A stretch of 64,000 nucleotides of DNA. Source: Telopea speciosissima. Its lineage: Eukaryota; Streptophyta; Magnoliopsida; Proteales; Proteaceae. The position numbers and the translations under genes are program-made. The DNA lies in NCBI RefSeq assembly GCF_018873765.1, contig NW_025317380.1, positions 107,501 to 171,500 on the forward strand. Direction: 5' to 3'. A model generated the notes under the pieces. The model saw nothing but the letters and a program-made list of their open reading frames with translations, did no database searches and was not told the origin of the DNA. Each line of letters starts with the position of its first letter. Position 1 is the stretch's first letter. This document shows positions 2,774 to 58,749 of the stretch, one piece after another.

Positions 2774-3240
2774 ACGAATCGATGCGACACGGGCTGAATT
2801 CGGGATCGTGGCAAGAAGGCCACTCGCCACTTACAATACCCCTTCGCGTATTTAAGTCGCGCAAAGGATTCTACCCGCGCCCGACAGAATTACGCTCAAG
2901 GCGGCCCCACGCAACACGTCCGTCGCGGGGCTTGGCCAACGACACGTGCCTCGGGAGCCTGGAGGCCCCTACGCGGGTCGGCAAACGGGCGACGGCGCAT
3001 GCGCTTCTTTAGCCTCGGATTCTCGACTTAGAGGCGTCACCATAATCCACACGAGCTTCACACATCGGCTTTTCAACCAAGCGCGATGACCAATTGTGTG
3101 AATCAACGGTTCCTCTCGCACTAGGTTGAATTACTATCGCGACACGCCATCGTAGGGTAAAACTAACGTCTCACGACGGCCTAAACCCACCACGCTCCCT
3201 ATTGGTGGGTGAACAATCCAACACTTTGGCAATTCGCTCG

Positions 3241-3278
<38 letters not shown>

Positions 3279-3815
3279 AACGCCGCTTATGAACGCTGGC
3301 TGCCACAAGCCGCTTATCCCCGTGGTAACTTTTCCGACACCTCTAGCTTCAAATTCAAGGTCTAAAGGATCGATAGGCCACGCTTTCACGGTTCGATTCG
3401 CATCGGAAATCGAATCAAACGAGCTTTTACCCTTTTGTTCCACACGAGATTTTTCTCGTTGAGCTCATCTTAGGACACCTGCGTTATCTTTAACGATGTG
3501 CCCCCACCAAACTCCCCACCCGACAATGTCCTCCGTCGAATTGGCCTACCGAGGCAGGCCTTAGGTCCAAAAGGAGGGGCGTAGCCCCCGCCTCCGACTC
3601 ACGGAGTAAGTAAAATAACGTTAAAAGTAGTGGTATTTCACTTTTGCCCGAAGGCTCCCACTTATCCTACACCTCTCAAGTCATTTCACAAAGTCGGACT
3701 AGAGTCAAGCTCAACAGGTCTTCTTTCCTCCGATTCTCGCCAAGCCCGCTCCCTTGGCGTGGTTTTCACGATAGTAGACAGGACAAGTGGGAATCTCGTT
3801 AATCCATTCATGCGC

Positions 3816-3873
<58 letters not shown>

Positions 3874-5629
3874 CTTACCCGCGCTTGGTTGAATTTCTTC
3901 ACTTTGACATTCGAGCACGGCGTAAATCACATTGCGTGAGCATCCGCAGGACCATCGCAATGCTTTGTTTTAATTAAAAAATGGATTCCCCTTGTCCGCA
4001 CTCGCTCGAGTCGATCGCTCGACGCCCGGAAGGCCCCCGAGGGGGCCGCTCCTAACTGTCCTCGGCCGGCGACGCTGGCGACCCGCCCGCCGCGGAAGCA
4101 GCTCGAGCAGTCCGCCGACACCGACGAGTTCAGGATCGGGACCCCGTGCCCAGCCCTCGTGAGCCAATCCTTTTCCCGAGGTTACGGATCCATTTTGCCG
4201 ACTTCCCTTGCCTACATTGTTCCATCGACTGCAGGCTGTTCACCTTGAGACCTGATGCGGTTATGAGTACGACCGGCGTGGTCGGCACTGGTCCTCCGGA
4301 TTTTCAAGGGCGCCGGGGCGCACCGACACCACGCGACGCGCGGTGCTCTTCCAGCCGCTGACCCTACCTCCGCCGAGCCGCTTCTGTGGTGGGCAGGTGT
4401 TAAACGTAAAAGATAACTCTTCCCGAGGCCCCCGCCGACGCCTCCTGGACTTCCTAACGTTGCCGCCACCGCCACGCCCCGGTTCGGGAATTTTAACCCG
4501 ATTCCTTTCGAGCACGCGTGCGACACGCTCTCGACGGGCTTCCCCGTCCCTTAGGATCGACTAACCCATGTGCAAGTGCCGCTCACATGGAACCTTTCCC
4601 TCTTCGGCCTTCAAAGTTCTCATTTGAATATTTGCTACTACCACCAAGATCGCACCGACGGCCGCTCCGCCCGGCTCGCGCCGTGTTTAACCGACCGCCG
4701 CCCTCCTACTCATCGGGCTCGGCAGCTTGCCCCGACGGCCGGTATAGGTTGCGCGCTCAGCGCCATCCATTTTCGGGCTAGTTGATTCGGCAGTGAGTTG
4801 TTACACACTCCTTAGCGGATTTCGACTTCCATGACCACCGCCCCGCCTGCTTAATCGACCAACACCCTTTGTGGGTTCTAGGTTAGCGCGCAATCCGCAC
4901 ACCCGGCTTCCGGTTCATCCCGCACGCGCTCCGCTTACCAAAAATGGCCCACTTGGAGCTCTCGATTCCGTGGCACGGCTCAACGAAGCAGCCGCGCCGC
5001 CCTACCTATTTAAAGTTTGAGAATAGGTCGAGGGCGTTGCGCCCGATGCCTCTAATCATTGGCTTTACCCGATAGAACTCGCCCGCTGGCTCCAGCCTAT
5101 CCCGAGGGAAACTTCTGAGGGAACCAGCTACTAGACGGTTCGATTAGTCTTTCGCCCCTATACCCAAGTCGACGAACGATTTGCACGTCAAGATCGCCGC
5201 GGGCCTCCACCGTAGTTTCTCTCGGCTTCGCCCCGCCGCATAGTTCACCATCTTTCGGTCCCGACAGTATGCTCTCACCGAACCCTTCTCGTAAGATCAA
5301 GGTCGGTCGGCGGTGCAACCCACAGTGGGGATCCCACCAGCAGCTTCCTTGCGCTTACGGGTTTACTAGCCCGTGACTCGCCATGTCGACTCCTTGGTCC
5401 GTGTTTCAAGACGGGTCGAATGGGGAGCCCGACAGCCGATGCCCGAGCATGCAGCTGCCTAGTGGCACGCCATGAAGGCGCACGCTGCCTACCACGATCG
5501 TGGGCGACGACGCCTCCACGGCATAACGCGACAACCCGGCTTGGGACGCCGCCACAATCCGGATCGGTCCACACTCGAGTCGAGCGGCGAACCACCGTAC
5601 ACCGCTCCGCATCCGACCAAGCGCATCGC

Positions 5630-5702
<73 letters not shown>

Positions 5703-5717
5703 TCGCGGTACTTGTTC

Positions 5718-5793
<76 letters not shown>

Positions 5794-5850
5794 CACGACA
5801 CTCGTGGTGCGACAGTGGTCCAGGCACGACGGGGCTCTCACCTCTCGGCG

Positions 5851-5881
<31 letters not shown>

Positions 5882-5986
5882 CGAGGACGCTTCTACAGAC
5901 TACAATTCAGACGACGAGGCCGTCCGATTCTCAAGCCGGGCTCTTCCCGTCGTCGCCGCTACTAGGGAATCCTCGTAAGTTTCTTC

Positions 5987-6019
<33 letters not shown>

Positions 6020-6041
6020 TAGCCCCGCCCGACTGGGTCGC
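2774..6041 (-). rRNA. 25S ribosomal RNA (large subunit)
   Basis: The minus strand reads as plant cytoplasmic 25S rRNA. The 5' end is placed at the gcgaccc block (6041), followed by the conserved stretch containing gtttaagcatatcaataagc (about 6001-6018). The 3' end is placed at about 2774, next to the conserved sequence around the ggccactcgccacttacaat complement. The span of about 3.27 kb is roughly 100 bases shorter than the usual 3.37-3.39 kb. The missing bases are scattered single or double deletions, many at CAG, CTG or G-run sites (for example ctcgccac where plants have ctctgccac). I interpret them as sequencing artefacts and not as pseudogene decay, but pseudogenisation is not excluded. 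Ends are good to a few bases. Confidence 0.95.
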
Positions 6042-6279
6042 GGTCGAAGCGTGTCACGAGACAACGCTTTACAGGTTACAAGAACCCAACGTATGGACTA
6101 AACGCACACGACGTCCGGACTAAATGGCAAAGTGGCTTCAACCACCCCTCGACGTGACGCCCGCCACACCGGGGGCTCTTTCCTTTGGACCGACCGTACT
6201 CCAAAACGGGGCACGGGGGGCCAAACTCCGCACCGCACTCGGCCACCACAAGGGCAACAGAGGGCGGGCGACGCGATGC
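6042..6279 (-). other. Internal transcribed spacer 2 (ITS2)
   Basis: GC-rich DNA of about 238 bases between 25S and 5.8S on the minus strand, the expected position and size for plant ITS2. It is removed from the 45S precursor during processing. Confidence 0.9.
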
Positions 6280-6433
6280 GTGACGCCCAGCAGCGTGTCT
6301 CACCGATGGCCTAGGGCGCAACTTGCGCTCAAAGACTCGATGGTTCACGGATTCTCGCAATTCACACCAAGTATCGCATTTCGCCACGTTCTTCATCGAT
6401 GCAAGAGCCGAGATATCCGCTGCCGAGAGTCGC
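6280..6433 (-). rRNA. 5.8S ribosomal RNA
   Basis: The minus strand contains the conserved 5.8S core, including gatgaagaacgtggcgaaat and ccatcgagtctttgagcgca, between ITS1 and ITS2. The length of about 154 bases is close to the usual 160-164. At about 6342-6360 the conserved ttgcagaatccc reads ttgcgagaatcc, one of the CAG-site anomalies described in the findings. The start is placed at the cgactctcgg block near 6433. Confidence 0.93.
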
Positions 6434-6674: not shown

Positions 6675-6690
6675 CAATGATCCTTCCGCA

Positions 6691-6753
<63 letters not shown>

Positions 6754-6852
6754 TCGCGACGCCGCCGGGCGGCGAACCGCCCACGCCGCCGCGATCCGAA
6801 CACTTCACCGACCATTCAATCGGTAGGAGCGACGGCGGTGTGTACAAAGGGC

Positions 6853-6912
<60 letters not shown>

Positions 6913-6913
6913 A

Positions 6914-6949
<36 letters not shown>

Positions 6950-7200
6950 TCAAAGATTACCCGGCCCGTCGGCCAAGGCTATAGACTCGTTGAATACATC
7001 GCGTAGGCGCGGCGGCCCGTAACATCTAAGGGCATCACGCACTGTTATTGCCTCAAACTTCCGTGGCCTAAACGGCCATAGTCCCTCTAAGAAGCTGGCC
7101 GTGGAGGGTACCTCCACATAGCTAGTTAGCAGCCGAGGTCTCGCTCGTTAACGGAATTAACCTGCACAAATCGCTCCACCAACTAAGAACGGCCATGCAC
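6675..7200 (-). rRNA. 18S ribosomal RNA, 3' part only
   Basis: The minus strand carries the 3' terminal 526 bases of 18S rRNA, recognised by the 3' end ggaaggatcattg (at about 6675-6687), by the conserved gtaacaaggtttccgtaggt near it, and by the universal block complementary to ggcggtgtgtacaaagggc (about 6834). The gene runs into the N gap at 7201. The sequence right of the gap is unrelated, so about 1.3 kb of 18S and the external spacer are missing. Several one-base deletions sit at CAG, CTG or GGG sites. Confidence 0.95.
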
Positions 7201-7300
7201 NNNNNNNNNNNNNNNNNNNNNNNNNNNNNNNNNNNNNNNNNNNNNNNNNNNNNNNNNNNNNNNNNNNNNNNNNNNNNNNNNNNNNNNNNNNNNNNNNNNN
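7201..7300. other. Assembly gap (100 N)
   Basis: Exactly 100 ambiguous bases, the conventional length for a scaffold join of unknown size. On the left is 18S rDNA. On the right the sequence starts inside the duplicated A/D block, at the equivalent of position 50927. Linkage of the rDNA to the rest of the window therefore rests on scaffolding alone. Confidence 0.97.
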
Positions 7301-7613
7301 AACACACAAAATTAACTAAAACTTAAAGAGTAGAACTAGAAGCAAAACAAAAACTAGGCTAAACAAGATAGAGATAGACTAATGATAGCAAAACAGATTG
7401 AAATTGAGAGGAAAAGCATCCGTAGGTTTAACTAATTTATATAGTTGATGGAAAGAAGAATAAAACAGAGCTGTCAATGTTTAGAACATATTGGTATTAT
7501 ATAACCAAGAGCCATGCTATCCTATTTGTACTGGTGTCCTTTTGAGGAGCACATCCCTATTTGTACTGATTTCTTATTCTCCCTTTTTAGGAGCACACCC
7601 CTATTAGTTGCAT

Positions 7614-7686
7614 GACTCTTGGTGGATTTCAACCACCATCTCCTCGGTAAATCCAAGGTGCTCTTCCATTTTTGAGCTAAAGAGTC
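7614..7686 (-). tRNA. tRNA-like cloverleaf type 1, copy A (damaged)
   Basis: Same element as the type-1 cloverleaf at 51241-51313 (see there for the stems). The acceptor pairs gactctt with aagagtc and the D stem gctc with gagc, but the T-loop reads ttgaaat where copy D has ttcaaat, losing the near-invariant C56. Copy A is therefore more likely inactive. The flanking DNA is nearly identical to that of copy D. Confidence 0.4.
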
Positions 7687-8523
7687 ACCTACCTACACAA
7701 GCTATATTGTTTCATGCCATTTTTACCCCAAATGGGACATACATAACATTCTTTCAGACAATGCACCCATATGACAAATCCCAAATGGAACATACATACA
7801 AGAGAGAGAATCACAAGCACATAGGCACAAACCATGATACAATCAATCTTGTTTTAAGACAATCCGGTGCATTGCAATCTCTACAAAACTTATGCCCAGA
7901 ACAAAGCAATCTTGTTTTAAGACACTCCATAAGGTATCTCCAGGGAATATTGGCATGACAATCAACAGAACACTACTACTCATTTGGCACACATGATTCC
8001 AGGGCTGACTTGCAATTTGAGAGTTAAAAACACTGCCTACTAGGATTGAATTCTGCACTGGGTTTTCCACAATCTGCAGCCAGGGACTGTATGTAGCCTA
8101 TGGTGATCTAATGAGAATGATTCAAGCAAACTAGGACCAGTGGGTAACCCACATCCATTCATTATTTTGTTCTACAGCTTCAACATGGCTAAAAATGGTG
8201 GACTCCAAACCAAACTGCATAAAGCTCTTTGCTGCTGCAGTTGTTAGTTCCAAAGGGAAACAATTACATTTAGAAGCTTAGTTCTCATCGTACCTCGACA
8301 TAGAGCCAATTAACATAAAAACATTTTCGGATTTCAGACTAAATAACGAAGGAAGGTTCACATTACAAATGCATTAGACGTTATGGCTGTCTCAAGCGAG
8401 AATGAGAACAAATAACATCTGCAGATCTCTATTGATCCATTGCAGGAGCCACATAGGCACCTTCCTTTAAGATCAACTAAATCAAGACAACTGATGGAAG
8501 TGAACGCTTATAAGCCTGGTTTG

Positions 8524-8841
8524 ATGGAGGCCCATAGCAGGATCATGTACAGCCAAGCTTTGTGGACTGGTGGTGGGTGAATCGGCCTTACAAAAAATTA
8601 ATATTAAAATTTTAAACTTAAAAATTACCTGTTGATGTCGCCTTCCCGCAACAGAGAAACTGGTGTGCTCTGGAAATTTCTCATGGAGGCCCAATAGCAG
8701 GGTCATGTATAGCCAAGCTTTGTGGACCGGTGGTGGGTGAACGGCCTTACAAAAATTAATATTAAAATTGTAAACTAAAAACTACCCGTTGATGTCGCCT
8801 TCCCGCAACAGAGAAACCGGGTGCTCAAATTTCCGGAAGAG
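8524..8841. repeat. 159-bp tandem duplication
   Basis: Two direct units starting at 8524 and 8683, each beginning atggaggccc and running through ggtggtgggtgaa and tgatgtcgccttcc to the phrase gcaacagagaaac. The same duplication is present in copy D (units at 52149 and 52307), so it predates the A/D split. A related single unit appears inverted at about 49560-49670. Confidence 0.85.
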
Positions 8842-9044
8842 AAGAAGAAGGAGTAGCGGAACGAAGGTGTGGCTTTAGATCTCCATGGCCGAAGAGGTCG
8901 TTGAATGTTTGCAACGCTTCTCCGAAACTTCGTGAAGAAAAGCAAAAGAGAGTTATGGAACCGAGCAAAGCAGTATGAGTTTTTGGGAGGAAGAAGCTAG
9001 AAGAAGAGGAGAAAAAGATGTGGTTCTCTGTTTCGTATAGTTTA
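8842..9044. repeat. Copy-A member of an inverted-repeat family (promoter/5'UTR-like)
   Basis: This stretch matches the reverse complement of 49340-49560 and the direct copy at about 52460-52674. Read on the minus strand it is CT-rich with many ttc/tct triplets, resembling a plant promoter or 5' UTR. It ends with tta at 9042-9044, directly before a Harbinger-type terminus. No protein function is recognised; short frames in it do not resemble any family I know. Confidence 0.6.
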
Positions 9045-9343
9045 GGACGCGCTTGATTGAAGGTGTCATAGAGTCGGATTCTTAAATTGGATCGGGTTCT
9101 TAAGAATCGTTCATGTGGATTTGGATTCTCGATAAAAAACCCGCTTGGTTACCCAAAATTTGTCAGCGGAATCCAGCTTGAAAACCTGCTTGGTTGCTCT
9201 GCTCCGTGTGTGGAACTGCTGAATCCATATGTAAGACTATTTGGTTACCCCGAGTCCGTCAATTGGATTCTACTTGAATTTTGTCTGGAAAAATATTTTA
9301 ATTGGTGTTATGTTACTTCAACAAAGCAAAACTCATAGTACGG
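9045..9343. mobile_element. Terminal fragment of a PIF/Harbinger-like transposon (copy A)
   Basis: Starts with ggacgcgcttgattgaaggt directly after tta and continues closely parallel to the left end of the intact element at 41690, including the repeated subterminal phrase ttggttaccc and rows of ggattc motifs. No matching opposite terminus was found nearby, so this looks like a one-ended remnant or a short deletion derivative. The same remnant is in copy D at 52675. Confidence 0.65.
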
Positions 9344-9510
9344 GCATTTTCAAACAAAAACAGAGATCTCTACATATGGTAAAAATCCATATCCATTTAA
9401 TTTATGAACATACATATAAATTTTTGTGAAATTTCAAAGATGTCATTAAATTTGGGTTCTTGTGTGGATTAGTGTCATAAATGACTATGCTATGAACAGT
9501 TGAATAAAAA

Positions 9511-9588
9511 AGGCCTTGGTGGATTCAAACCACCATCCTTGGAACATACGCATGTTCCAAGTGCTCTACCAATTTGAGATAAAGACCC
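9511..9588 (-). tRNA. tRNA-like element type 2, copy A (damaged)
   Basis: Counterpart of the type-2 element at 53146-53223. A D-stem base is changed (tctc instead of gctc, facing gagc), so the D-arm no longer pairs fully. The T-arm ggtgg/ccacc is intact with loop tttgaat. The anticodon region is an almost perfect palindrome, ttggaacatgcgtatgttcc, giving a long hairpin instead of a seven-base loop. A run of six T follows the 3' end on the minus strand, as in a Pol III terminator. Confidence 0.3.
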
Positions 9589-10380
9589 ACCAAGTGGAGC
9601 TTGGAATTTACAAATAACTAAAATAAAAGAAAAAACTAACAAAAACAAATCCTATGCTTCCACCATACTCATTCAAAGCCTTTCCAAGTTAATTCTCCAA
9701 TTCTAAATTGAAGCCCACAGATCACAAGAACCATTGGTCCAAAGAAGTCCGAGAAATGAAGAAAGAGCAGCCATTCACATTAAAAGGAAAAACCATTGAG
9801 CAAGATATCACAAATCATAGTCCCAAATCCACGTATGAGATTACAAAAATGATAATAAATAAACAAATATGCATTTTTGGTCTGTTTTCTCTTAATACAG
9901 ACTTACACGAAACACAAAATCAATTATAAATGCAAACTTAATTGGACTTAAGACATAATATAGTTTCATATTCCAATCACAGTTTTGTTGTCTAGGCCAT
10001 GCCATTCCAAGCATTAATTCCTTACAATGATAAGGTATCATTTAGTTCCGACTCATCAACACAAGTCATAATGGAGAACCGATTCAATCAATCACACTCA
10101 TTTATTATATACTTAAATGACAGACCCACCTTCACCACAAAGAAAATACAATACTCAAATGAAGTAACAAAACACTTCTTATTACCCTAATCTTGAATTG
10201 ATTGTCACCACATCGGGTAGTTTTTAAAATTAAGTACTAATTTATAATAAGTCACTTGATGACTTGACTAGTTCTATAATAATACCTATTCCGGATTAGA
10301 TATGGGAAAAAGTACTCACCACAATGACCAGGAGGATGAGTTATAAGACTCTTAATCGACTAAATCTCATGTCATGGGGG
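9589..10380. other. Intergenic DNA of copy A, no gene seen
   Basis: AT-rich sequence with short frames only. None resembles a known family, and the equivalent frames in copy D (53224-54010) differ in length and are interrupted, which argues against coding. Confidence 0.6.
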
Positions 10381-11552
10381 TATGTTAATCGTGGTGCATA
10401 CTATAGGCTGACCTAAGTGGATGTAAGGGGTGAGGCCGCCTCCGATGAGAATTTTATGGGCAAATTCTCTAAACATTCATAAGTCCAAAATGGGGACAAG
10501 GCCAAAATGTCCATAATATAAAAAAGGGTGATTACAAATTCGGGTGGTAGGATATGGATGGTAAGTCACTGGCTACACCAATGACGAAGAAAGGTTCAAG
10601 AAGTCCGACTTCACCCGTACTCTGTAGCGTGGCTTATCGGACCTAGTGTAGATTCAAGTCGAAAGACATCGCAACGATGTGTCCTACCATTCTAATGTGC
10701 TCGGACTAATTTTTTGTTTTATATTTTACTGGTATTTTGAATCTTGTGGGAGAATTGTTGGTTTTAAATGATTTTTTAAAACAATTAAGATTCAAAATAG
10801 GTTTAAATATTTGTTTAAATACAAATAAGTTTCTTTAACATTTTACCTCTTCTTTAATTTGTTTATTCAATTTTTTTGGAGACATTTTATGTCCCTTTAT
10901 GGAGCTCCTAAAGCTTTTAATCTTTTCAGTTTTTGGCTCCTATTTTCTCCTCTAAATGTTATTTCTTAAATGCCTTTGTTCTTCTATAAATTGAGGGAAC
11001 TCTAGTCCTTTACGGATTAAAAGGGGCTTTCTTGAGATTAATCAAGACTCTCTTGAGATTAATCAAGTCTCCCTTGAAATGAATCAAGTTTCTTTTTGAA
11101 ATCAATCAAGTCTCTCTTGAAATGAATTCCTCTTTGTGTCATGTGTATGCATATATTGCATATTATTATTTATTCCCATTGTTTTGTTGAGTTTTGGAAG
11201 TAATATTATTATAAGTATTTTCCTTTTAGTTTGAGCACAGCCTGTAGTACTTGAAGGGGTCTAGTAGTTGAGTGCACGACATCGGGGGAGCCAATGGGCT
11301 GTTTTATCTTGGAGGTCGATTCGCATATTCCCGGTTGCACCATAGGGGGCGTCTACGGTCTTAAGGACAATGTCAAGTGACATAACTCAGCCCGCAAATT
11401 TTCTAACATAATTGGGGAGCCAATGGGTTGTTTTATCTTGGAGGCCGATTCGCATATTCCTGGTTGCACCATAGGGGGCGTCTACGGTCTTAAGGACAGT
11501 GTCAAGTGACACAACTCAACCCGCAAATTTTCTAACATAATTTTTGGTTACA
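10381..11552 (+). mobile_element. 3' end of an LTR retrotransposon (internal remnant plus LTR), copy A
   Basis: An LTR is placed at 10756-11552, starting tgttggttttaaatg and ending ttggttaca (TG...CA). A purine-rich stretch, gtgggagaa, lies directly upstream and fits a polypurine tract, so this is a 3' LTR with a few hundred bases of internal remnant before it. No 5' LTR, primer-binding site or pol domain was found. The LTR holds a 129-bp tandem duplication (11285-11413 and 11414-11542). The same element is in copy D (LTR 54387-55182) and predates that duplication. The superfamily cannot be set without pol. Confidence 0.7.
11285..11542. repeat. 129-bp tandem duplication inside the LTR
   Basis: Two direct units, each starting ggggagccaatggg and ending tctaacataatt, with only a few differences. 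In copy D the repeat has the same 129-base period. The unit includes the gcgtctacggtcttaaggac motif. Confidence 0.9.
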
Positions 11553-11875
11553 GGTTCTTGAAAGAGGCAATGTAAATAATTGTTTGAAAGCTCTTACAAG
11601 AAAAATAACTTTCAACTCATTTATGTTTGATCTCTCAATATTTTGACATATAATGTCCTACATGGTCACAAATGGCACCGTCCGCACTCATTTCAGCTTT
11701 TCCTAGGTTATTTTGTTTCGATGGGTACTCCAACAAAGCGAGAGTGAGGGATTAGGTTCGTAGTGAGAGAGAGGGAGGAGTGGAGAGAGGAGTGAGAAAG
11801 TGCGGGAAAGAGGATAGAGAATAGAGGATGTTAGGGTTGAGGTCAAAATGTTTGCTTTCAAAACAGGCCATGTGT

Positions 11876-12464
11876 TTCTTTAGTAGATGGAAGATCAAGG
11901 TGCAGTTCGTTCATGGCAGGTCAACAGCTGTGACTTGGATGAAACCTCCTACGGGGCGGGTTGCGATTAACTGTGACGGGTCCCTACGGAACGGTCTCGG
12001 GGGTTATGGTGCGATTGGGCATGTTTTGTTTGCAACTGCCGGCGCGCAGGGTGACGATAGTATTCTTCGAATGGAACTAATGGCAATCAAAGGGGGCCTT
12101 ATTCGCGCAAGGAACAAAGGGCTGGATCATGTGCAAGTCCGATATGACTCACTAATCAGCGTGCATACTATCCTCGGTCACTTTCGCACCCCATGGTACT
12201 TTCATAGCTTGGTTGGCGACATTCTGTACCCTCCGGAATTGCTTCGGGAGTTGCGTCTTTGTACACCATTTCCACGAGGGCAACTCATGTGCGGATTTCC
12301 TGTCCGGGTTCTTAAACTCGCCCAAGAGACCGATCTCTGAGACAGACAGTCTTCCCACGGCACTCTCTCAGCTTATAAGAGAGGATGCCTTGGCAAGAAA
12401 TACTATAGATTGTAATTATTCCCTATTTTCTAATACAAAGCTCCCTTACTCCAAAAAAAAAAAA
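11876..12464 (+). mobile_element. 5'-truncated LINE with RNase H domain remnant, copy A
   Basis: The plus strand encodes the C-terminal RNase H region of a plant LINE. Visible parts include VAINCDGS, GGYGAIGHV, ELMAIKGGLIRARNKG and, after a frame change, VHHFHEGNSCADFLSG. The element ends in an A-run (12453-12465) and is flanked by an 11-base target duplication, aggccatgtgt, at 11865-11875 and 12465-12475. This is the signature of target-primed reverse transcription. The reading frame breaks near 12210, so no intact protein is made. The same insertion is in copy D (55504-56099). Confidence 0.8.
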
Positions 12465-12582
12465 AGGCCATGTGTGTACACGTGTTGTCAATCTAAGTTG
12501 GGGGGCAATTGGAGAAATGGAATAGATAAAAATTCATCCAAAGGCCTCAGTCAAGAGAGATGGAAGGAAAATTGTTCCCTTA

Positions 12583-13724
12583 AGGTGTGTTTGGTTGGCA
12601 AATAACGGATAGAAAAGAAAAGAAACGAAAAAAAAATAAAAATTTTCCTTGTTTGATTGTAAACTTGTAATAGAAAAGAAAAGGAAAAAAAACTACATAA
12701 AAAAGCAAAGTGAGGAAAGGGGGGGTGTGAGCAAGGTGGCTTATGTGGTGTTGTTCTCGATCCCAAGCATGGTTGGTTGGAAATGGGGCCTGAGCACCTG
12801 AACTACTTTCACATTGGTTACTAGACTTGGGAAGCTTATGGATATCGTAGTAGCAAAGGAGCTATTTTGAAAGCTTTTCAGGTCTTTGGGCGTTCTGGGA
12901 CCTCTCTCCTTCTCTTCTTCTTCACCTTCTATATCAAACCTCTAATGATTGATGATGGAACAAAACCCAATTTCACTCCTTTCAAGCCAAGCATCTCTCG
13001 TGATTGTTGGAGTCTTAAGGACCCTTTTCTCTACCACGTTTCTTCTTCTTCGTATGCGAAGCACTCGCAAGACAAACAATGGAGTTGGAGGTTACACAGG
13101 TAATCACTACCCAAGAGTGATGTTGTGGTTAGGAAGAACTCAAGGATCTATTAGGCGGTCACGCTCATTGAGTCGCTATTGGTTTTCCAGTTTGATCAAT
13201 TGTGTCGTGGAGGGGAAAAATGAAATTTGCAGATGCATTCTCCACCGGAGCTAGAAAAGCAAAGAAGAAGAGAAAAGTGAAAGAGAAAACACCGCAAAAC
13301 GCATGTTATGCTTTTGTCCAAAGACAAGGCTCCCACAATTTCGCAGAATCGCATAGATCCACCAGCTTTCCTGGCGGCTATCCTTCCACTACCGGTAAAC
13401 CTGGTTGTGACTTCCGCCCTCTAAATCCATCACTATTTCAGCCATTTGCGTGCACACGGCCATGATCCCTTATCTTTTTCTCTCTTTTAGGATTTTCCTT
13501 GTGAAAATCCATTTTTTTCTTACAATTTTTGGGGAGACTTCTTTTTTTACAAAATTAGAAATTTGTGCTATTTTTGAGGTAAATTTAAATTTAAAGAAAA
13601 ATCGAATCTTCATCCGTCAATGGACAACCAAACGCATAGAAAATTTGGAGCAAAAAATTAGTACCGAATCTTCTGTTTTTTTTTTTCCCTATTCTATTGA
13701 TGTCGTGACAAACAAACACAACCT
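12583..13724. mobile_element. Non-autonomous DNA transposon with TTA/TAA target site, copy A
   Basis: The left end aggtgtgtttggttggcaaa, preceded by tta, faces a right end whose reverse complement begins aggttgtgtttgtttgtc, followed by taa. Tta/taa target duplications and ends containing gtgtttggtt fit the PIF/Harbinger group. The element is 1142 bases and has no recognisable transposase; frames inside are short. In copy C only its right part survives (from about 25702). Terminal similarity is imperfect, so the exact ends are uncertain. Confidence 0.55.
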
Positions 13725-14000
13725 TAATAAATTAAAAGTTGAAGGAATTCAAACTAAGGAAATTAAATCATGAGACTTGATTCCAATACAAGGAAATAGC
13801 ATATTGTGATTGGGGAAAATATATTCTATGCTAACTTTGTGGGAATTCTTTCACATGCCTTCTCATATAACCAATGTTTACCGTACAAATAAGATGTCAT
13901 GAGTTCAACTCTCTTTGGGGTTTAACCAAAAAAAGAAAAACTCTGATTTCCTCACATATTTGTCTCTCTTTCCTGATCTTGTGAGCTCCTATTAACAAAA

Positions 14001-14422
14001 GGAAAAATTACACGATTAGCTACTTTTGGGTTTTCATTTACAAAACTGTCCACCCTATGTTTGAGTTAACAAAAATAGATAAAAACAAGTTTAGTTTTAC
14101 AAAACTAGACAAAATAGTGACTCTCCTTCCTTCCTCGGTAGTTCCCCTCTGAAAAAAATCTCTTTTTTTTTCCTCTGTTAGTTGGGGTAGCAGAGGATGG
14201 CGGTGGCTGGGACAAGGGTAGGGTTGCAGGGAACGAAGGATGCCTGGGCGAGAAGGCAATGACAGGGGGAAAATGTCTAAAAAAGTAAGTGTGGGAGGGA
14301 GAGACTATTTTGTCCAATTTTGTAAATCTTAAACTTGTTTTTGTCTATTTTTGTTAACTCAAACATAGGGTGGACAGTTTTGTAAATGAAAACCCAAAAG
14401 TAGCTAATCATGTAATTTTCAC
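14001..14422. mobile_element. Mutator-like MITE, 422 bp, copy A
   Basis: Two inverted arms of about 110 bases (14001-14112 and about 14310-14422) begin ggaaaaattacacgattagc and gtgaaaattacatgattagc. The element is flanked by a 9-base direct repeat, ttaacaaaa, at 13992-14000 and 14423-14431. Copy C has the uninterrupted site with a single ttaacaaaa (about 26287-26295), giving an empty-site control. Long inverted repeats with a 9-base duplication are typical of Mutator-like elements. It has no coding capacity. Confidence 0.9.
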
Positions 14423-14431
14423 TTAACAAAA

Positions 14432-16263
14432 CCCATTCTCACGTGCTGATTGGTGTGACTTCGGAGATTCTCTTCCCCTCCCCCCATATGGGTAGTGTGG
14501 GGGAAACCTTTATATGAAACTTTTAATTCAGATTTTAACCATTTTTTATGTTTACTTTAGGGGAAAAGGCTGGGCACGCCTAGACGCACAACATGTGTCA
14601 TCCTCCCTCCTTCCCTTTTGTAAAAGATCCATTTGCCCTCCTACGTTCAACCATGTGAATGATGTATGCCGCTAATTTATCGATAGCTGACGGCATGCCT
14701 AACCCTCTCTCTTATTTTAGATGAAAGTTGCTTAAGGAGAAAGATGTGTTATATATTAATGCATGAACCCACCCGTGTTTATTCATGTTTCCACATGCTT
14801 GCCTTGATGATATGAACATTTTTTATAGGGTGACTTGTTGATTGTATATATGAAGTGGTGAATTTATTTTGCCCTTTTCAACTTATAATGAGATTTATTT
14901 CTAAAAATTTACTTTTCAACTACTTCCAATACTCATTTCAGGCTTAAAATTGACTTATGAGATAAATGTGAAATCATGTATTACATAAACCCACCCAATC
15001 TTTCCATATCCTATGTGAATAGAGATTATGATCTCATGATCATATTATTATTTCAAAGAAACATGAAAACTGGAAAAAAAATATATATATATGGTCCACC
15101 TATTAGAGCTCACAAAATAAGCCCAAGCAACTCTTCAAGGTTCTTACTTGCTTAAAGTTTAATTGCTATTGACTAGAAGTACCAAGTCATGCTGCATGAA
15201 GAATAAAGAACTATCACCATATATATGGTTAAGAAGGGAAATTTCAGGTGAAAACTTTGGAGAAATATTTCCTTTGAGAGAGTGTACTGTCCACGCCCAG
15301 ACATTGAAGGAGGCAAAATGACCGATCCCACCCCATGAAAGGCGAAAATAACCATCCGCCTGATGCTTCTACACACATTCCCATTGGCCTGCACCCATGC
15401 AAGCGTGCATGCAGGGGCCACACTTCCCCACAAGAAATGCTGCCCCAAAAACTTTTTACAGAGGTGATGCTTTTTTCTGAGGGAGCTATTGGTTACTAGA
15501 AAGAGAAGGTGGTAAGTTCTTACCCTGGAAAATTATAAACTTCCCATTTTTTTAAAGTGTTTTGTAACGAGTGTGTGATACTTTGGGCAGGTATAAATGT
15601 GGGGAATTGTGGGATGCTATGTGGATATGGAGATGGTGACTGGGTGGGTTTTGTGGCTGTAAGATTTTCTGGTGGGGTTTTTTCCTGGTGGTGAAATATT
15701 TCTTGGGGATGGACTGTAAAATTTTCTCTATTTCAATGAAATTTCTCCAGTGTTTCATAAAAAATCTCTGTTTTAAGTTAAACCTTGTTTCAAGGTTGTC
15801 TCAAAAGATCCATATGTAGAAGTAAATACAAGTAGAGCTGAACTAACAGATTTGGAAGCAAGTACTACATGTGGGATCCTCAAATGGTCATTTGTTTTCA
15901 GAAGGAGAAAAAAAATGAAATAGAAAGCATGGACCAAAAATGGCTGCAATTGTGTAAAATTCTGGGAAATTCGCTTAAATTGATAAAAGTACATGGGCAA
16001 ATGCTTCCTTCACTGTTGATCCCTCCCTTTAAATTAATGCTTACTAATTAAAAGACATGAATGCACTGTATGTATCGCTTAGAAGATTAATAAACGAGAG
16101 AAACCAATAGTATTAGATTTAAAACTTGGTAGACATTCATTCAATGCAAATACAAGGTCTAGCAATCAATACAAGTATTTAAGGGGGAAAAAATACTTTT
16201 AAAATTCCAAAATATTGGTACAATTTACATACAATTCCAAGGAAAAGGGAGTAATTTCCTTGG
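14432..16263. other. 3' flank of PhzF-like gene A, no gene seen
   Basis: AT-rich DNA shared by copies A, C and D. A short AT run lies at about 15083-15096. The 91-codon minus-strand frame at 15173-15448 is conserved between A and D, but copy C lacks about 200 bases within it, and no family resemblance is seen. I treat the region as noncoding. Confidence 0.55.
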
Positions 16264-19200
16264 TTATGCTAATAAGGAACCTTCCATGACAGTAACAGCT
16301 TTGCCTCGAATCAGTACTCTCTGGTTTGTCTCATCTAAATGCAATTCCAGTACTCCACCCCTTGGAGATGCCTAATCCATATAATTTGTGTTATTGAGAA
16401 ATCTCATGCATGTGTTTGTGTCTGTGATAGAAAGAGAGGAGAGTTAAAGAGGATACCATGTATGCAACAAGATCACATTTTCCCAGCTTTTTACTCCAAT
16501 AGGGCACTAAAGCACAATGTACGCTTCCACAAACAGGATCCTGCAAGATAAATGGAAGCCATTTCCAATGAGCCAGACCAATTAAGGATACTAACAGTCT
16601 AAAATTCTGTTCAAAAAATTATTCTTCTCACTTTATAATCTTTTGAACAATCATCATGGTCCAATAATGGAGTTTATTTGCACATAATAGAATCAAACCA
16701 CGTAAAAACTATTTCACTGCAGAAACCACATTGTTTTTGTACAGCAACTATTACAAACAAGAGTTAATTTCTTTACTCCAAGTCAGTCTCTACTACCTAA
16801 CTTCTAGAAAAACAATCAATAGACAATCAGAAAACAAGAGAGCTTTAGAACTATTAAAAAAAAACCAAAAGAGGAAAAGAAAAGATGGAAGATGCTTGCA
16901 ATGTTCCACAACGATATAACTAAAAATCTTCATTAGTTTGGTACAACATTCACGCCAACAACTAGATGTATAGATAATATCCATTAAGAGATCATGTCCA
17001 AATTTAAGTTGCCCAAGTACCAATTACTATATGGAAACAGGATACAGATTTACTAAAGTCCAAGATATTATGCCACTTAACATAGCGACAGTTTATATAA
17101 ATGATAAACACCAAGAATTGAAAATTTTCTTCCAAAACAAAAAGATAAGTCAAACGAAGTATAACTAGCATCTAGCACAAGAATCCTCAGTAATTAGTCA
17201 CTGTGACAAAGCACAAGTATATGTAGCAAGCACAAGAAAAACAAAATCATTACATGATTGACACCCATAGGTGCAAGTTTTTGTGATTTCATTACGATTG
17301 AAAGTTAAAAAGGAAAAGAAAAGTGAAAGGAATAAATTTATTCCATTAACTAATTAAATGATAAAGCGTGGCTCAATCTTTCACATTTACTTCTACAACA
17401 TAAGTTTCTAAGTATTAATAATAATGAGAGTGACTAGTTGTCTGTAAATATTAGTTACATTTCAAAAAGGAAATTACTGTCAACAAGGCCATTACAATAC
17501 GTATTCATAAATGAAAGATAAATAAATAAACCAAGTCCATTTTATGTTCATAAGTAACAAAGAAGTTACCTCATTAATTCCCATCTTTGGACTAAAAAAG
17601 CGACTGAAGAAATCAAATCCAGATCCGTCGGGAGCAGGCCCTGTAACAATGAGCCCTCTAGCAGGACATTTTCGTATCTCATCCAATTGTGGTTTTAAAT
17701 CTGCAACAGTCTTTCCGGATGAGAGCTCGACCTAAGAAAATGCAACCAAGTAACCTCTTTCAGTACAAATGCCAAAAATTTCTATATTGGAGCTACAAAA
17801 AAGGCATCCGCCTAGCTTCCAACAAACATGTGGTGCCTGGAGTGGGTAAACAACACATATTCTTATCCAATGGTACAACCTGGGATAGTCAGTGTCAAAT
17901 TACATGCAATGCTACAAGCATTAAGCAAGAAACAGGAGACGAACTAGGATTAAGAAAAGCAGAGGCTTCCAACTCTATCAATTATTGAAATGAAAGTCGT
18001 TAAGTTGTCCCCAAGTTAAAGCACACTAAAAACGTGTTACTACACTTGTTACCTGAATGCTGCTTCTAGCATACTGATTCAAACCTACACAAATGAAGCA
18101 CCCTAATATATCTATAATCAAGTGTCATTATAAATGAATGGGATAAAACAAGTACATAGAGGTCACCACCACCGGCTTCACTGTTTTACTTATATTGACC
18201 ACGAGCGCCATTCGGGGTTTCTGGAAGTGATGGAATATCTGCAGATTCACACTCAAGCACAGGAATTGTAGGGAAGTCTAATTCTATAGAGAAGTGCTCT
18301 TCGGGTAGCCATCTCGAGAACTTTGACGCGTCCACATTGCTTCCTCGTAGGAATCCTTTTAGCAATCGAACTCCGGATAGTGTGACAAACTCAATAACAT
18401 CTGTTCTTGCTATCCCGTATGCAAAGAGAAAATGTGCAGATGCCAAGGTTCCATGACCGCAAAGCTTGACCTATAGATAAAAATGAAAACGAATTATGTG
18501 GAAATTTATTTACCAACAAAGTGAAAGCAATTGACCTATCGACAACTAGCCAATGTATGAAATTTAGCGAGAACCCATTGGTACTATACGATGGTAACTA
18601 GTGATCATGAGCACGGTAGGAAGGGGAATCATCATTCAATTAGTTCCAATTTGTATATGGTACACCAAAGGTCCAAAACGCTTCTCTCGGTTGATCGTTC
18701 CTCGGTGCTACCTTCAAGATCATGAACTATGGGAAGGCAAATTTGCAGGGGATGTTCCACTAGAAATATTGATGTAGTTCAAGAGAACAATAACGGAAGC
18801 AACAAACCAGGCCATCAAACTGGACCAAGAATAGGCTATTACGTGTAATTTTGAGTGTCCAATGGGTTGTATGGGCCATGGGCTTTATATTTTTGGGTTT
18901 ATTTTTGTAATGGGACAATTCTATAAGCCCAAATATTAGGGATTTAAGTCCCATGCGGGGTTAAGTAGTTATTTTCTGTTTCTTAGTCATTAAGTGGTGG
19001 ACAATGGCTGACACTAAGAGGGGAGTGTATCAGTGTATTTAAAATTTTCCCTTTTTATCTGACTGGCTCAACTCAAACTTGCAGCCCACTTCTGGCATTG
19101 ATAATAATCAGACATACAGTCCTGTGTACACCCATCCTCTGAGACAAAAGCACTTCCAATATACACACATGCACAGCCACAAGAAGCACACCCTTCCTGC

Positions 19201-21981
19201 AGACAAAAGCACTTTCAATATACACACATGCACAACCACAAGAAGCACAACCACAACACAAGATTTTTAGGTTACAGCCTCTCTGCGAAAGCAGGGGTAA
19301 GGCTGCGAACATTATGACCCTCCCCAGACCCCACAATGGCGGGAGCCTCGTGCACTGGGTATGCCTTTTTTTTTATAGATTTTGAGTTTCTATTTCCTTG
19401 TAAGTTTTATTTAGTTGCTATTTTGCTATACTCTCCATTAGCCAAGGGGAATTTCTATTTTGTAACAAGGCAATTTATAAACATAGGAGGAAGTAATTCC
19501 TAGCCTTCAACGACTTTGACAGCCATTGAATGTGTGGTTTGTGCATGTGTGTGAGTATGAGAAACACCCATGCTGTGAGAGACAGCAAACCTTGGTGACA
19601 TTTCGAGGTGGAGATTGGTGAGAGGCCATCTCCTAGTTGGTGGGAGATCAACATATCCCTTTCTTTCTTTCTTGTTCCACTGGTAAGCTGTTCTACTGTT
19701 ATTTACTATTAGTTTCCTTATTTCTAATCTCACTTCTCACCTTGTTTCTTCCGAGCGACATCAGCTGTTTGAATCGCATACTTCCATTCCATTGACTTGC
19801 GCATGGCGCTACAAGGTTAGAGGCCTTACTTGCTGTTTTTCAGCCACCGTTTCCGATTTTGTAAGTTCTATTTCTCTGCTTTCTAATCTGGAGCAGGACT
19901 CCTTTTGTGATTTCTGTAACTGTTATTGATTGAGACCAATAATCTCCGTTTATACGCTGTTTCCTAACTTTCTAATTCTGGTTTTAGAAACTTGCTAATT
20001 CTGTATCACCCCCATAACTTCATATCTAACCATCAGATTTTGATCAAATTTTGAAGATATGCTCTCCACCCAATTAAGTACATTCGACTAGAGTTATATC
20101 TTCATCAGACTGATCTGTTGTGGTCTCCCTGCGGTCCTGGTAATTGGTTTCTTGGTCATTAATGGTTTGGTGATTAGGAACCCAAGAATACTCTTGTTAT
20201 TGCTTTGACTCAATCCCCAAAAAGTGGATCTCACACTAATAAAACAACAACAAGGCCTTATCCCAACTAAATGGGGTTACGCTACATGGATCCTTGCCCT
20301 CTACTCGGCTCTATTTGAAATTATATGTGGTATAAGGCCTAGGCTATGCATGTCTTCGTCACCACCTCTCCTAGGGTTATTTTAGGCCTATCCCTGGCTC
20401 TTTTAGCTTTATCAATCTAAATCAAGTCACTCCTCCAGACTGGAACATCCAAAGGTCTCCGTTGAACATGGACGTGCCACCTCAAACAACATTCTCATAG
20501 TTTATCATGTATCAGAGCTACACCCAACTCAGCTCTAATGGATCCCACTCTAATAGCTCCGCATAAATCAACTACATACCAGGTGGGCTTTAAGGTTAAT
20601 TGGAACAGTTCCTTTCTAGTATAGTAGGAAGGCCTATGGCAGTTAGTCGGTTAGTCCTATCACATGAATGTGCCCAATGCATAACATGGTATTGTTTTTC
20701 TACCATGAGAGATTTCATGAATTTACCAAACAAACCAGAATCGTACCAACTAATAGAGAAGCTACCTTCAATATTAAAAATGCAACAAAAAAAAAACAAT
20801 GTAGTTCTTCATAACTCAATTAAGAGAAGTAATAAAAAAAATTTCTTAAATTACACGGCCAATAAACCATGAGATTTTATTCTGCACTACTCAACTCTCT
20901 GCTGGAAGGTAATAATGGTGGCCAACTACTAGATACTACAGCTTCCTAGATCTAATTTACAACAGTAATCACTTACATGAGAATCAACCAAAAGGCTATA
21001 AAGAAGTGATAAATCGAAAAGAATAAAATTACTAGTACAATCCTCCAACACTCTCCCCCCACCCCCACCCACACCCACACCCACACCCAAAAAAAGTGTG
21101 GAGCCTTCTATAGTCCTGGAGTAGGAACAACAGCCACACATAGCAACACTTTAAATAAATAAAAAAAAACACAAACCCCTTGAGTCATGAATCATGACTC
21201 AACCATAAGAACCCACTACCTTCCCATACATTACTATATTATATATATGTAAATTATATGTAGAAGAAAAAATTTAAACTTCCACTTAAACAAAAAACAA
21301 AAGAAAGTGGGCCAGCTTAAAACCAACTGAGAAATTAAAATTTAGAAATAAATCAAATAAAATAAACAAGTTTTAAATAAACTTTAATTAAACAGAAAAA
21401 AAAATAGAATTCAAGAACACCGAAATTTCAGATTCTCAGGGTTTCAGTGAGTACATTTCCAGGAAAAGGTAAATTGTGTTTCTCTTCGAAATCGTAAAAA
21501 CAGATAATATGGAGAATCTAAAGTTTGGAATCACTACACTAAAAATTGAATGCAAATTTTTTTTTTATTCTCCCGGGGCAGAGTGAGTGGGGATATAGAG
21601 ATGAACAGAGGTGATAGATGGTAGAAGAACATCAAAACGAACCTCAACTAAAGGAGTAAACCAGCGGAGGTGGAATCGCGTGACAGAATGGTCATTAGCA
21701 TCCGATTGGGTAGAGGAAATCGGAGTCAAGAAACAAGTTTCGGAAATGTTGAATTCCGCGGCAACAGCTTGCATCCATTTCTCATCTTGCTCTTCTTCTT
21801 TCTCCAACAAACACACTGCCGCTGGGTTTCCCTTAAACGCCGTGTCAGTGAACGCGTCCACCTGCTCGAGTCATCCCAGCTTCATCTTAAAACCACAAAA
21901 TCTCAAAGCGCACAGACCATAAGAATCCAAAGGAAAAGACAGAGAAATTACCACAGAGTACTTCACGGGACGCTTCACCAT
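16264..21981 (-). CDS. PhzF-like isomerase/epimerase family protein, copy A
   Basis: Seven exons are read on the minus strand: 21981-21952, 21861-21643, 18470-18190, 18084-18053, 17731-17570, 16540-16457 and 16371-16264, with GT-AG introns. The protein starts MVKRPVKY and shows the family motifs in order: FKGNPAAVC, FNISETCFL (catalytic Glu of the PhzF fold), RFHLRWFTP, KLCGHGTL (active-site His), GSGFDFFSRFF and DPVCGSVHCALVPYW (active-site Asp and Ser), ending GKAVTVMEGSLLA. Restored length is about 306 residues, normal for plant members. PhzF enzymes are cofactor-free isomerases; the plant substrate is not known to me. No targeting peptide is seen. Exon 3 as written is out of frame, but every break is at a CAG or CTG site and copy C reads through, so I take these as sequencing artefacts. 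The 32-base exon 4 is inferred from splice sites and protein length. Intron 2 is 3.2 kb and rich in transposon remnants. Confidence 0.85.
19141..19259. repeat. 59-bp tandem duplication in intron 2 of gene A
   Basis: Two direct units starting gagacaaaagcacttccaat and cagacaaaagcactttcaat, each followed by atacacacatgcaca and cacaagaagcaca. The same pair is present in copies C (about 33876-33990) and D (about 62767-62880). No coding role is inferred. Confidence 0.8.
20240..20460 (-). mobile_element. LINE 3'-end fragment, copy A
   Basis: The minus strand matches the C-terminal tail of plant LINE reverse transcriptases, best read in copy C (34935-35120): PVWRSDLIQIDKGKRVRNRP, then ISNRVEWRARIHVADP. 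It is followed by a ttg-rich tail, seen as aacaacaacaa on the plus strand. In copy A the frame is interrupted. It lies in intron 2 of the PhzF-like gene. Confidence 0.65.
21052..21092 (-). repeat. G-rich minisatellite in intron 2 of gene A
   Basis: The plus strand is a run of ccccccacccccaccc followed by repeats of acaccc. On the minus strand, which is the coding strand of gene A, this becomes a series of GGGTGT and GGGGGT blocks with at least five G-runs of three or more. It could form a G-quadruplex in DNA or intron RNA. Copy C has lost the whole block (about 260 bases, junction near 35597). Confidence 0.8.
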
Positions 21982-27640: not shown

Positions 27641-30600
27641 CTATGCTAATAAGGAACCTTCCATGACAATAACAGCTTTGCCTCGAATCAGTACTCTCTG
27701 GTTTGTCTCATCTAAATGCAATTCCAGTACTCCACCCCTTGGAGATGCCTAATCCATATAATTTGTGTTATTGAGAAATCTTATGATAGAAAGAGAGGAG
27801 AGTTAAAGAAGATACCATGTATGCAACAAAATCACATTTTCCCAGCTTTTTGCTCCAATAGGGCACTAAAGCACAGTGTATGCTTCCACAAACAGGATCC
27901 TGCAAGATAAATGGAAGTTTTTGTGATTTCATTACGATTGAAAGTTATAAAGGAAAAGAAAAGTGAAAGGAATAAATTTATTCCATTAACTAATTAAATG
28001 ATAAAGCGTGGCTCAATCGTTCACATTTACTTCTACAACATAAGTTTCTAAGTATTAATAATAATAATGAGAGTGACTAGTTGTCTGTAAATATTAGTTA
28101 CATTTCAAAAAGAAAATTACTGTCAACAAGAATACATATTCATAAATGAAAGATAAATAAATAAACCGAGTCCATTTTATGTTCATAAGTAACAAAGAAG
28201 TTACCTCATTAAGTCCCGTCTTTGGACTAAAAAGCGATCAAGAAATCAAATCCAGATCCGTCGGGAGCAGGCCCTGTAACAATGAGCCCTCTAGCAGGAC
28301 ATTTCCGTATCTCATCCAATTGTGGTTTTAAATCGCAATGTGCCTTTCCGGATGAGAGCTCGACCTAAGAAAATGCAACCAAGTTCCCTCTTTCAAGTAC
28401 AAATGCCAAAAATTTCTATAATTGGAGCTAAAAAAAAGGCATCCGCCTAGCTTCCAACAAACATGTGGTGCCTGAAGTGGGTAAACAACACTTATTCTTA
28501 TCCAATGGTACAACCTGGGATAGCCAGTGTCAAATTACATGCAATGCTACAAGCATTAAGCAAGAAACAGGAGATGAACTAGGATTAAGAATAGCAGAGG
28601 CTTCCAACTCTATCAATTATTGAAATGAAAGTCGTTAAGTTGTCACCAAGTTAAAGCCCACTAAAAACATGTTACTACAGTTGTTACCTGCATGCTCCTT
28701 CTAGCATACTGATTCAAACCTACACAAATGAAGTACCCTAAAATATCCATAATCAAGTGTCATTATAAATGAATGGGATAAAATAAGTACATAGATGTCA
28801 CCACCACCGGCTTCAATGTTTTACTTATATTGACCACGGAGCGCCATTCGGGGTTTCAGGAAGTGATGGAATATCTCTGATTCACACTCGAGCACAGGAA
28901 ACGCAGGGAAGTCTAATTCTATAGAGAAGTGCTCCTCTGGGTCGCCATCTGAGAACTTTGACGCGTCCACATTGTTGCTTCCTGTAGGAATCCTTTTAGC
29001 AATCAGAATTCCAGATAGTGTGACGAACTCGATAACATCTGTTCTTGCTATCCTGTATGCAAAGAGAAAATGTGCAGATGCCAAGGTTCCATGACCGCAA
29101 AGCTTGACCTGTAGATAAAAATGAAAACGAATTATGTGGGAATGTATTTACCAACAAGTGCGAAAACAATTGACATATTGACAACTAGCCAATGTATGAA
29201 ATTTAGCAGAACCCATTGGTACTATACAATGGTAACTAGTGAACATGAGCACATTTTGTATATGGTGAATGAAAGGTCCAAAACGCTTCTCTCTGGGTTG
29301 ACTGTTCCTCGGTGCTACCTTCAGCGTCATGAACTATGGGAAGGCAACTTTGCAGGGGATGTTCCACTAGAAATATTGATATAGTTCAAGAGAACAAGAA
29401 CGGAAGCAGCAAACCAGGCCATCGAACTGGACCAAAAATAGGCTATTATGTGTAATTTTGAGTGTCCAGTGGGTTGTATGGGCCATGGGCTTTATAGTTT
29501 TGGGTTTACTTTTGTAATGGGACAATTTTATAAGCCCAAATATTAGGGATTTAAAACCCATGCGGGGTTAAGTAGTTATTTTCTGTTTCTTAGTCATTAA
29601 GTGTTGGACAATGGCTGACACTGAGAAGGGGGGTAATGTAGTCCTAGATAGGTAGGAGACCTAATAGGAGCTAGTTCAACCAGGATCTAATCTGAACAGG
29701 TCATCCGAATGGGAGAAACTTGAGTTTTAGGTCAAAATTAGGGTTAAAGTTAGGTTTAGGTTAGAGTTGCCTTATATAGTAATGATGGGCAGGTGTAGGG
29801 AAGTCTAATGGTATAGGTTTTATGATGTTTGAGTGAATGCAAGTAGGTTAGGTGAGTTGGGCAGCAAGATAAGGTTATTTGAGACAATTCCTAATGGAGG
29901 TAGGAGAAGGGGATTCTAAGGTTTAGAGATATGATTTGGTTACTAATTTCAGAATTATCATGTCATGAAATCAACTACTTATTCTGAGCATGAAATCAGA
30001 ATCGAGTATGGTTGAAGGTCTGAAACTGTGTTTTAATGGAGGTAGGGGTAGAATGGGAAATATGAGAATATATTCAAATCAGGCCACAGGAATTAGGTCA
30101 AATTTGAATCACTTCCCAAATTAGGGTTAATAGAGGTATGGTGAAAATATGAGTTTAATCGGATGGCTGGTTTGGTAGATCTCAAAAATCACCTTGTATG
30201 TGACCTTCTAGAAGGAAGAAGAATAGTTGAATTTCTTACTTGTTGCAGGTCTTCAATGGTAGCAGCTTTGAAGATGAACAATGGGGTGTCCCGATCTTCA
30301 CGGTACAAGGAGATAAGTAGCAGCCCTCTCGATCTTCACGATGCAAGGAGTCGATTGGAGATCCACCAATCCCTTCAACCTTGATATTACTCACAAGGCA
30401 CACTCACAATGGAGCAAAGGCAGCAACAAAGGCAACAAGCATAAAGCTAATTTTTATTAATCAAATTCGTATTCAATGCTGGCCTCCCTTACAAACTTAT
30501 ATAGAAGACTCAAAAATAGACTTAGACACTAAAAAGGATTGGCCTAATCCAATCCTTAACCTATAAGCTAACTTAAACTGACTAGGAAACTAAAATAGAC

Positions 30601-50888: not shown

Positions 50889-51240
50889 TTGGTTAAGAAA
50901 ATCTTTGGAAATTGTTGATGGAAACTTAAACACAAAATTAACTAAAACTTAAAGAGTAGAACTAGAAGCAAAACAAAAACTAGGGCTAAACAAGATAGAG
51001 ATAGACTAATGATAGCAAAACAGATTGAAATTGAGAGGAAAAGCATCCGTACGTTTAACTAATTTATATAGTTGATGGAAAGAAGAATAAAACAGAGCTG
51101 TCAATGTTTAGAACATATTGGTATTATATAACCAAGAGCCATGCTATCCTATTTGTACTGGTGTCCTTTTGAGGAGCACACCCCTATTTGTACTGATTTC
51201 TTATTCTCCTTTTTTAGGAGCACACCCCTATTAGTTGCAT

Positions 51241-51313
51241 GACTCTTGGTGGATTTGAACCACCATCTCCTCGGTAAATCCAAGGTGCTCTTCCATTTTT
51301 GAGCTAAAGAGTC
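51241..51313 (-). tRNA. tRNA-like cloverleaf type 1, copy D
   Basis: A 73-base cloverleaf on the minus strand plus an A discriminator. The acceptor pairs gactctt with aagagtc (7/7), the D-arm gctc with gagc (4/4), the anticodon arm ccttg with cgagg (4 pairs and one G-T) and the T-arm ggtgg with ccacc (5/5) around a canonical ttcaaat loop. The anticodon loop gatttac lacks T33, so ordinary decoding is unlikely. No Pol III T-run follows directly. The structure is far better than chance, but the amino-acid identity cannot be assigned and it may be a decayed tRNA or a regulatory tRNA-like RNA. Confidence 0.5.
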
Positions 51314-52674: not shown

Positions 52675-52975
52675 GGACGCGTTTGATTGAAGGTGTCATA
52701 GGAGTCGGATTCTTAAATTGGATTGGGTTCTTAAGAATCTGGTTCATGTGGATTTGGATTCTGATAAAAAACCTGTTTGGTTACCCAAAATTTGTCAGGC
52801 GGAATCCAGCTGAAAAACTGTTTGGTTGCTCTGGTTCTGTCAGGTGGAATCCGGTTGAATCCATATGTAAGACTATTTGGTTACCCTGAGTCTGTCAATT
52901 GGATTCTACTTGAATTTTGTCTGGAAAAATATTTTAATTGGTGTTATGTTACTTCAACAAAGCAAAACTCATAGT
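52675..52975. mobile_element. Terminal fragment of a PIF/Harbinger-like transposon (copy D)
   Basis: Begins ggacgcgtttgattgaaggt after tta. This copy keeps more CTG motifs than copy A, for example ctggttctgtcaggtggaat where A has a garbled equivalent at about 9205-9225. No opposite terminus was found. Confidence 0.65.

Positions 52976-58747: not shown

Positions 58748-58749
<2 letters not shown>

Follow-up and report, generated by a model that had tools for sequence, protein, structure and literature searches.

Copy differences at CAG and CTG in a stretch of plant nuclear DNA as probable base-calling errors at methylated sites

Do the differences between repeated copies in a stretch of Telopea speciosissima DNA reflect the biology of the plant, or the way in which its sequence was obtained? 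The window, by which we mean the whole stretch of 64,000 nucleotides analysed here (contig NW_025317380.1, positions 107,501 to 171,500), is plant nuclear DNA and comprises a ribosomal DNA (rDNA) unit on the minus strand, a gap of 100 Ns and tandemly duplicated blocks. An initial annotation had read the differences as a base-calling signature of CHG methylation, concentrated at CAG and CTG. Our results indicate that many of the differences at CAG and CTG are very probably artefacts; the focus on these two trinucleotides was borne out, its extension to CCGG was not, and a second class of changes at ACG had been missed.

The rDNA unit harbors the genes for 25S rRNA (2774..6042, minus strand; RF02543, 2144.9 bits) and 5.8S rRNA (6281..6431, minus strand; RF00002) together with the 3′ portion of the 18S rRNA gene (6675..7200, minus strand; RF01960), which is truncated by the N gap (7201..7300) separating the rDNA contig from the remainder. 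A tandem subrepeat array with units of GGGCAGCGATGTGCG type adjoins the rDNA at 1292-2306 and is probably intergenic spacer. Beyond the gap, duplicated blocks A (7304..20372, plus strand) and D (50930..64000, plus strand) share 96.2% identity (blastn), and additional partial copies are located between them. PhzF-like exons (PF02567) were found within the duplicated blocks, namely copies A (18189..18470; 31.9 bits), B (28824..29120; 37.1 bits) and D (61816..62094; 30.7 bits), all on the minus strand, and the first exons of PhzF-like genes lie in tandem at 37705-38052 and 21568-21870 (PF02567, 87.9 and 92.5 bits). ARAGORN detected a tRNA-Lys (TTT) at 7612-7687 in block A and at 51239-51314 in block D; only the D copy reaches the Rfam gathering threshold, and a single base sets the A copy apart, TTTCAACC replacing TTTGAACC.

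The rRNA genes provide a comparison with an external reference. From Rfam alignments to the minus strand of 2774-7200, in segments covering all but the most variable 25S parts, we took those trinucleotides in which all three consensus letters are conserved. CAG or CTG was altered in 24/29 cases compared with 189/1062 for the other trinucleotides (p = 1.5e-13), the segments 25S_4 and 25S_5 overlapping by a few bases so that one site is counted twice; after removal of this double count, 23 of 28 distinct sites are altered, most of them in the 25S gene. Other conserved trinucleotides containing CpA or TpG were altered in only 9/80 cases. Enrichment at CAG and CTG in 25S and 18S, as initially described, was thus confirmed, and that at CCGG was not: conserved CCG/CGG in the rRNA genes was altered at 4/23 sites compared with 209/1068 for the rest (p = 1.0). 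Even among the five distinct sites that were kept, two are changed just beyond the three letters (AACAGGT, ACCTGCG) and another (CGCTGAA) shows a change at the edge of its seven-letter context.

The form of these changes is as distinctive as their position. A CpG was gained at 16 of the 23 distinct altered sites and lost at none, and a deamination-type change (C>T or G>A) was seen at one. At 1813 conserved rRNA positions, a count that includes the overlap of 25S_4 and 25S_5, the commonest substitution was A>G (52), whereas U>C was counted 22 times, C>U 8 times and G>A 12 times; relative to Rfam, these positions thus lack the surplus of C>T or G>A changes that marks deamination. In the 5.8S gene the conserved GCAG appears as GCGAG: the altered string noted initially is present as TTGCGAGAATCC at plus-strand position 6349, with fewer bases in its CCC run than in the string quoted then, and the reference form TTGCAGAATCCC occurs nowhere in the window.

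A second reference for 18S came from an unexpected source. Among plasmids, the only near match of the whole rDNA was NZ_CP050525.1, a 1764-base “plasmid” of Acinetobacter baumannii which proved to be a eukaryotic 18S sequence across its whole length (1657 bits). It appears to be a plant 18S, and its end resembles an Illumina adapter; the record is a contaminant deposited as a complete plasmid. Relative to it, CAG/CTG in the window's 18S was altered at 9/10 sites and other trinucleotides at 92/460 (p 6e-6), some of these other differences looking like true species differences or oddities of that record. Scans of genome contigs and viral contigs for the reference rRNA pattern gave no match, nor did a near search of phages. 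E. coli genomes, in which a 23S-like stretch matched once, partially and at 77%, were set aside as a reference, as was a distant plasmid search with the 25S sequence, for which the ten records listed among 157 were all bacterial or archaeal.

Alignment of block A with block D revealed the same concentration between two copies of the plant's own DNA. In total, 109 of 300 CAG/CTG loci differ, and 13 control trinucleotide pairs differ at 11.1%-19.7% (largest p 1.6e-6). The pairs of strings quoted in the initial annotation were recovered, their coordinates deviating by no more than about one base: on the plus strand, A has ATTAACTGTGAC at 11966..11977 where D has ATTAATCGTGAC at 55592, TAATCGACTA at 10353..10362 where D has TAATCAGCTA at 53988, and GTTAATCGTGG at 10384..10394 where D has GTTAACTGTGG at 54021. 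As had been claimed, the direction varies from site to site, the motif being kept in A and changed in D at 47 loci and the reverse at 68, with six columns in both groups. For 50 of these 115 altered observations an indel lies within 7 nt, and another 28 show at least two substitutions within 7 nt, so that 78 lie beyond a single change. The single changes comprise 16 of deamination type, 13 exchanges between CTG and CCG or between CAG and CGG, and 8 other substitutions; those of the first two kinds, 29 of the 115, could have arisen by mutation. A CpG was gained by other than one substitution at 33/109 CAG/CTG loci and at 14/55 CCA/TGG loci, the latter overlapping CAG/CTG. Altered loci are also neighbors more often than expected (59 adjacent pairs compared with 39.3, a number that no permutation out of 10,000 reached).

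Not all of the differences between A and D are artefacts, and part of them is real divergence. The background divergence is about 1.1% (101/9084 columns). CCG/CGG was altered at 28-31%, inside the range of the other CpG-containing trinucleotides (15-39%), and is therefore indistinguishable from CpG decay. In favor of the artefact reading, CAG and CTG are depleted over 7301-64000, with observed-to-expected ratios of 0.75 and 0.71. Among 2-kb bins the strongest depletion lies outside both blocks at 43301-45300 (18 observed, 49.6 expected, ratio 0.36), perhaps another heavily affected domain.

The errors are restricted regionally. Per 1-kb bin of the A/D alignment, the altered share of CAG/CTG starts at 1/25, stands at 55-73% in bins two to seven, drops to 4-20% in bins eight to eleven, and is 38% and 21% in bins twelve and thirteen. 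The six high bins (alignment columns 1000-7000) define a high-error domain at 8303..14248 in block A and, as its counterpart, at 51930..57859 in block D (both plus strand). For the 16 NC[AT]GN 5-mers present both in this 6-kb domain and outside it (columns 0-1000 and 7000-11000), 84/138 loci are altered inside and 8/102 outside (odds ratio 18.3), a comparison that excludes 60 loci past alignment column 11,000, 17 of them altered. The controls CAA, CAT and CAC with their complements also rise, from 34/622 outside to 134/726 inside (odds ratio 3.9; CAA/TTG alone, 13/246 and 55/318), because ordinary divergence is greater there as well, at about 1.5-2.4% in the domain compared with 0.1-1.3% in the outside bins. 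The regional effect on CAG/CTG exceeds that on the controls (interaction p 7e-4). Since matched 5-mers behave differently in the two regions, a state not contained in the sequence is needed, and in a plant CHG methylation is the natural candidate. A simple division into genic low-error and transposon-derived high-error DNA was rejected, given that PhzF-like exon copy A (columns ~10,900-11,200) lies at the edge of a bin (columns 11,000-12,000) with 10/26 loci altered, and that the only hint of a transposon within the high-error domain is a weak hit resembling RNase H (E 0.0025), which falls below the Pfam cut-off.

Apparent frameshifts follow the same motif. An alignment of the PhzF-like exon from A, B and D contains nine indel sites, eight of which have CAG or CTG within three columns in at least one copy, a condition that 24% of single columns fulfil; the remaining indel spans three bases and preserves the frame. 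The frame of copy A is disturbed relative to B and D, and each of the three copies deviates from the others at CAG/CTG indel sites. The string AATCGAACTCC occurs at 18364 and 61988, and AATCAGAATTCC at 29001. For this one exon tested, the proposal that many frameshifts in the window are artefacts is supported, and A, B and D are therefore not to be classed as pseudogenes from this sequence.

We consider it highly probable that these observations result from systematic base-calling errors at CHG-methylated CAG/CTG in native plant DNA, most likely sequenced on a nanopore platform. Concentration at a motif, changes beyond single substitutions falling in either copy, and dependence on region are the marks of a methylation-motif artefact, and all three were found. 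Cytosines of CAG and CTG methylated in CHG context would produce a signal absent from the training of the base caller, which would then write familiar strings, typically with C beside G: CGAG, CGG, CG or CGA for CAG, and GCG, ACG, CG or TCG for CTG. Being systematic, such an error would persist through consensus building, and as CHG methylation comes in domains, the errors would span the rDNA and one 6-kb domain per block and be rare outside. The involvement of the nanopore platform and of CHG methylation is likely, methylation being supported indirectly by the regional restriction at matched 5-mers and by the CpG gain; the bias towards CpG would reflect training of the caller on CpG-methylated DNA. 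The expectation that every CHG context is affected, including CCG, failed in the rRNA genes. In plants CCG is often less methylated than CAG and CTG, and therefore this result only lowers the standing of CHG methylation as the cause. Also counting against the explanation are the five conserved rRNA CAG/CTG sites that are kept, the one-sided changes at ACG described below, the greater ordinary divergence of the high-error domain and, between A and D, the CpG gain by other than one substitution that CCA/TGG shows as well.

Other explanations have to account for the same data. Pore or caller might confuse CAG and CTG on sequence grounds, methylation being uninvolved, and the motif enrichment by itself would fit; the domain should then not matter, whereas identical 5-mers are altered far more often inside it, and its greater divergence explains only the part of this effect visible in the controls (odds ratios 3.9 and 18.3), which makes such confusion unlikely. 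Alternatively, the copies could be truly degenerate, the rDNA being a pseudogene unit and the blocks silenced duplicates, all eroded as their 5-methylcytosines deaminate. Methylated DNA would be expected to decay in this way, and the 16 deamination-type observations among the 115 and the background divergence of about 1.1% speak for some of it; nevertheless, we regard it as very unlikely as the general cause, considering that only 1/23 altered rRNA sites is C>T or G>A, that the commonest rRNA change, A>G (52 compared with 12 G>A and 8 C>U), runs in the opposite direction, and that 78/115 A/D cases require an indel or at least two substitutions within 7 nt. The window contains several near-identical blocks, and repeats are often poorly polished, so a mixture of real copy divergence, local misassembly or repeat collapse, and polishing that mixes copies may also be considered. 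This combination predicts neither the motif, nor the CpG gain, nor changes at conserved rRNA positions, and it is extremely unlikely.

Nanopore errors at methylation motifs are already known as a kind of artefact. According to passages of Wick et al. 2019 (PMC6591954), about 70% of the consensus errors of default ONT models fall in CCAGG/CCTGG methylation motifs. This Dcm methylation of Enterobacteriaceae shares with the window a 5-methylcytosine in a CAG/CTG core and errors that survive into the consensus, likewise blamed there on training data lacking the modification; it differs in being bacterial and confined to CCWGG, whereas the window is plant DNA with all CAG/CTG affected but only within domains. 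For native plant DNA, passages of PMC7501810 and PMC9749173 report lower nanopore accuracy and species-specific basecallers and also blame plant DNA modification missing from the training data; unlike the present analysis, these passages contain no motif-level error table or CpG gain, and the terms “CHG”, “CAG” and “CTG” do not occur in PMC9749173. In Listeria, untrained modifications similarly lead to consensus mismatches and whole-genome amplification removes them, demodified DNA being read correctly, according to passages of PMC10687267; there, the errors are bacterial and the modification types are described as novel. Passages of PMC8188678, PMC8514461 and PMC10027222 likewise hold no motif-level error table. 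Among titles and abstract openings, with few subscription papers included, no CAG/CTG-to-CpG consensus errors in plants were found, which is weak evidence of absence.

The second class of changes affects ACG in the rRNA genes. Conserved ACG was altered at 10/13 sites, eight reading GCG, one having lost its A and one reading GC with a deletion, compared with 0/13 for conserved CGT. With looser flanks, A>G before CG was counted at 12/29 rRNA sites and the mirror change T>C at 2/28 (p 0.005); in the A/D comparison no such one-sided change was seen (1 and 1). Symmetric CHG methylation does not explain a pattern with ACG altered and CGT intact; a consensus built mostly from the reads of one strand would explain the asymmetry. 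The altered sites include the universally conserved AGTACGAGAGG loop, which we take to be the sarcin-ricin loop and which here reads AGTGCGAGAGG.

In an assembly of this kind, frameshifts, differences between copies and seeming rRNA pseudogenes would be misread as biology, and claims of gene loss, silenced duplicates or rDNA variants based on it first need accurate reads. The use of the finding thus lies in quality control, and its biological interest is low. More tentatively, the CpG-bearing replacements of CAG/CTG might be a footprint of CHG methylation readable in the finished sequence, a reading that we hold to be possible but somewhat short of probable. If it were true, methylated domains of plants could be mapped from the assembly file alone, the one-sided change of ACG to GCG would reveal the strand whose reads made the consensus, and old nanopore-only plant assemblies would carry an unintended record of methylation.

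One particular outcome recurs at unrelated places. In the 18S gene TCTGG is read as TGCAG(G) at 7153-7166; the 25S gene has a CTGCAG string at 4222-4235 where Rfam has CUCUAG and where the plant sequence is presumably CTCTGG; and in block D CCAGA is read as CTGCA at 62946-62958, the mirror image of the change in 18S, with CCAGA retained in A at 19320.
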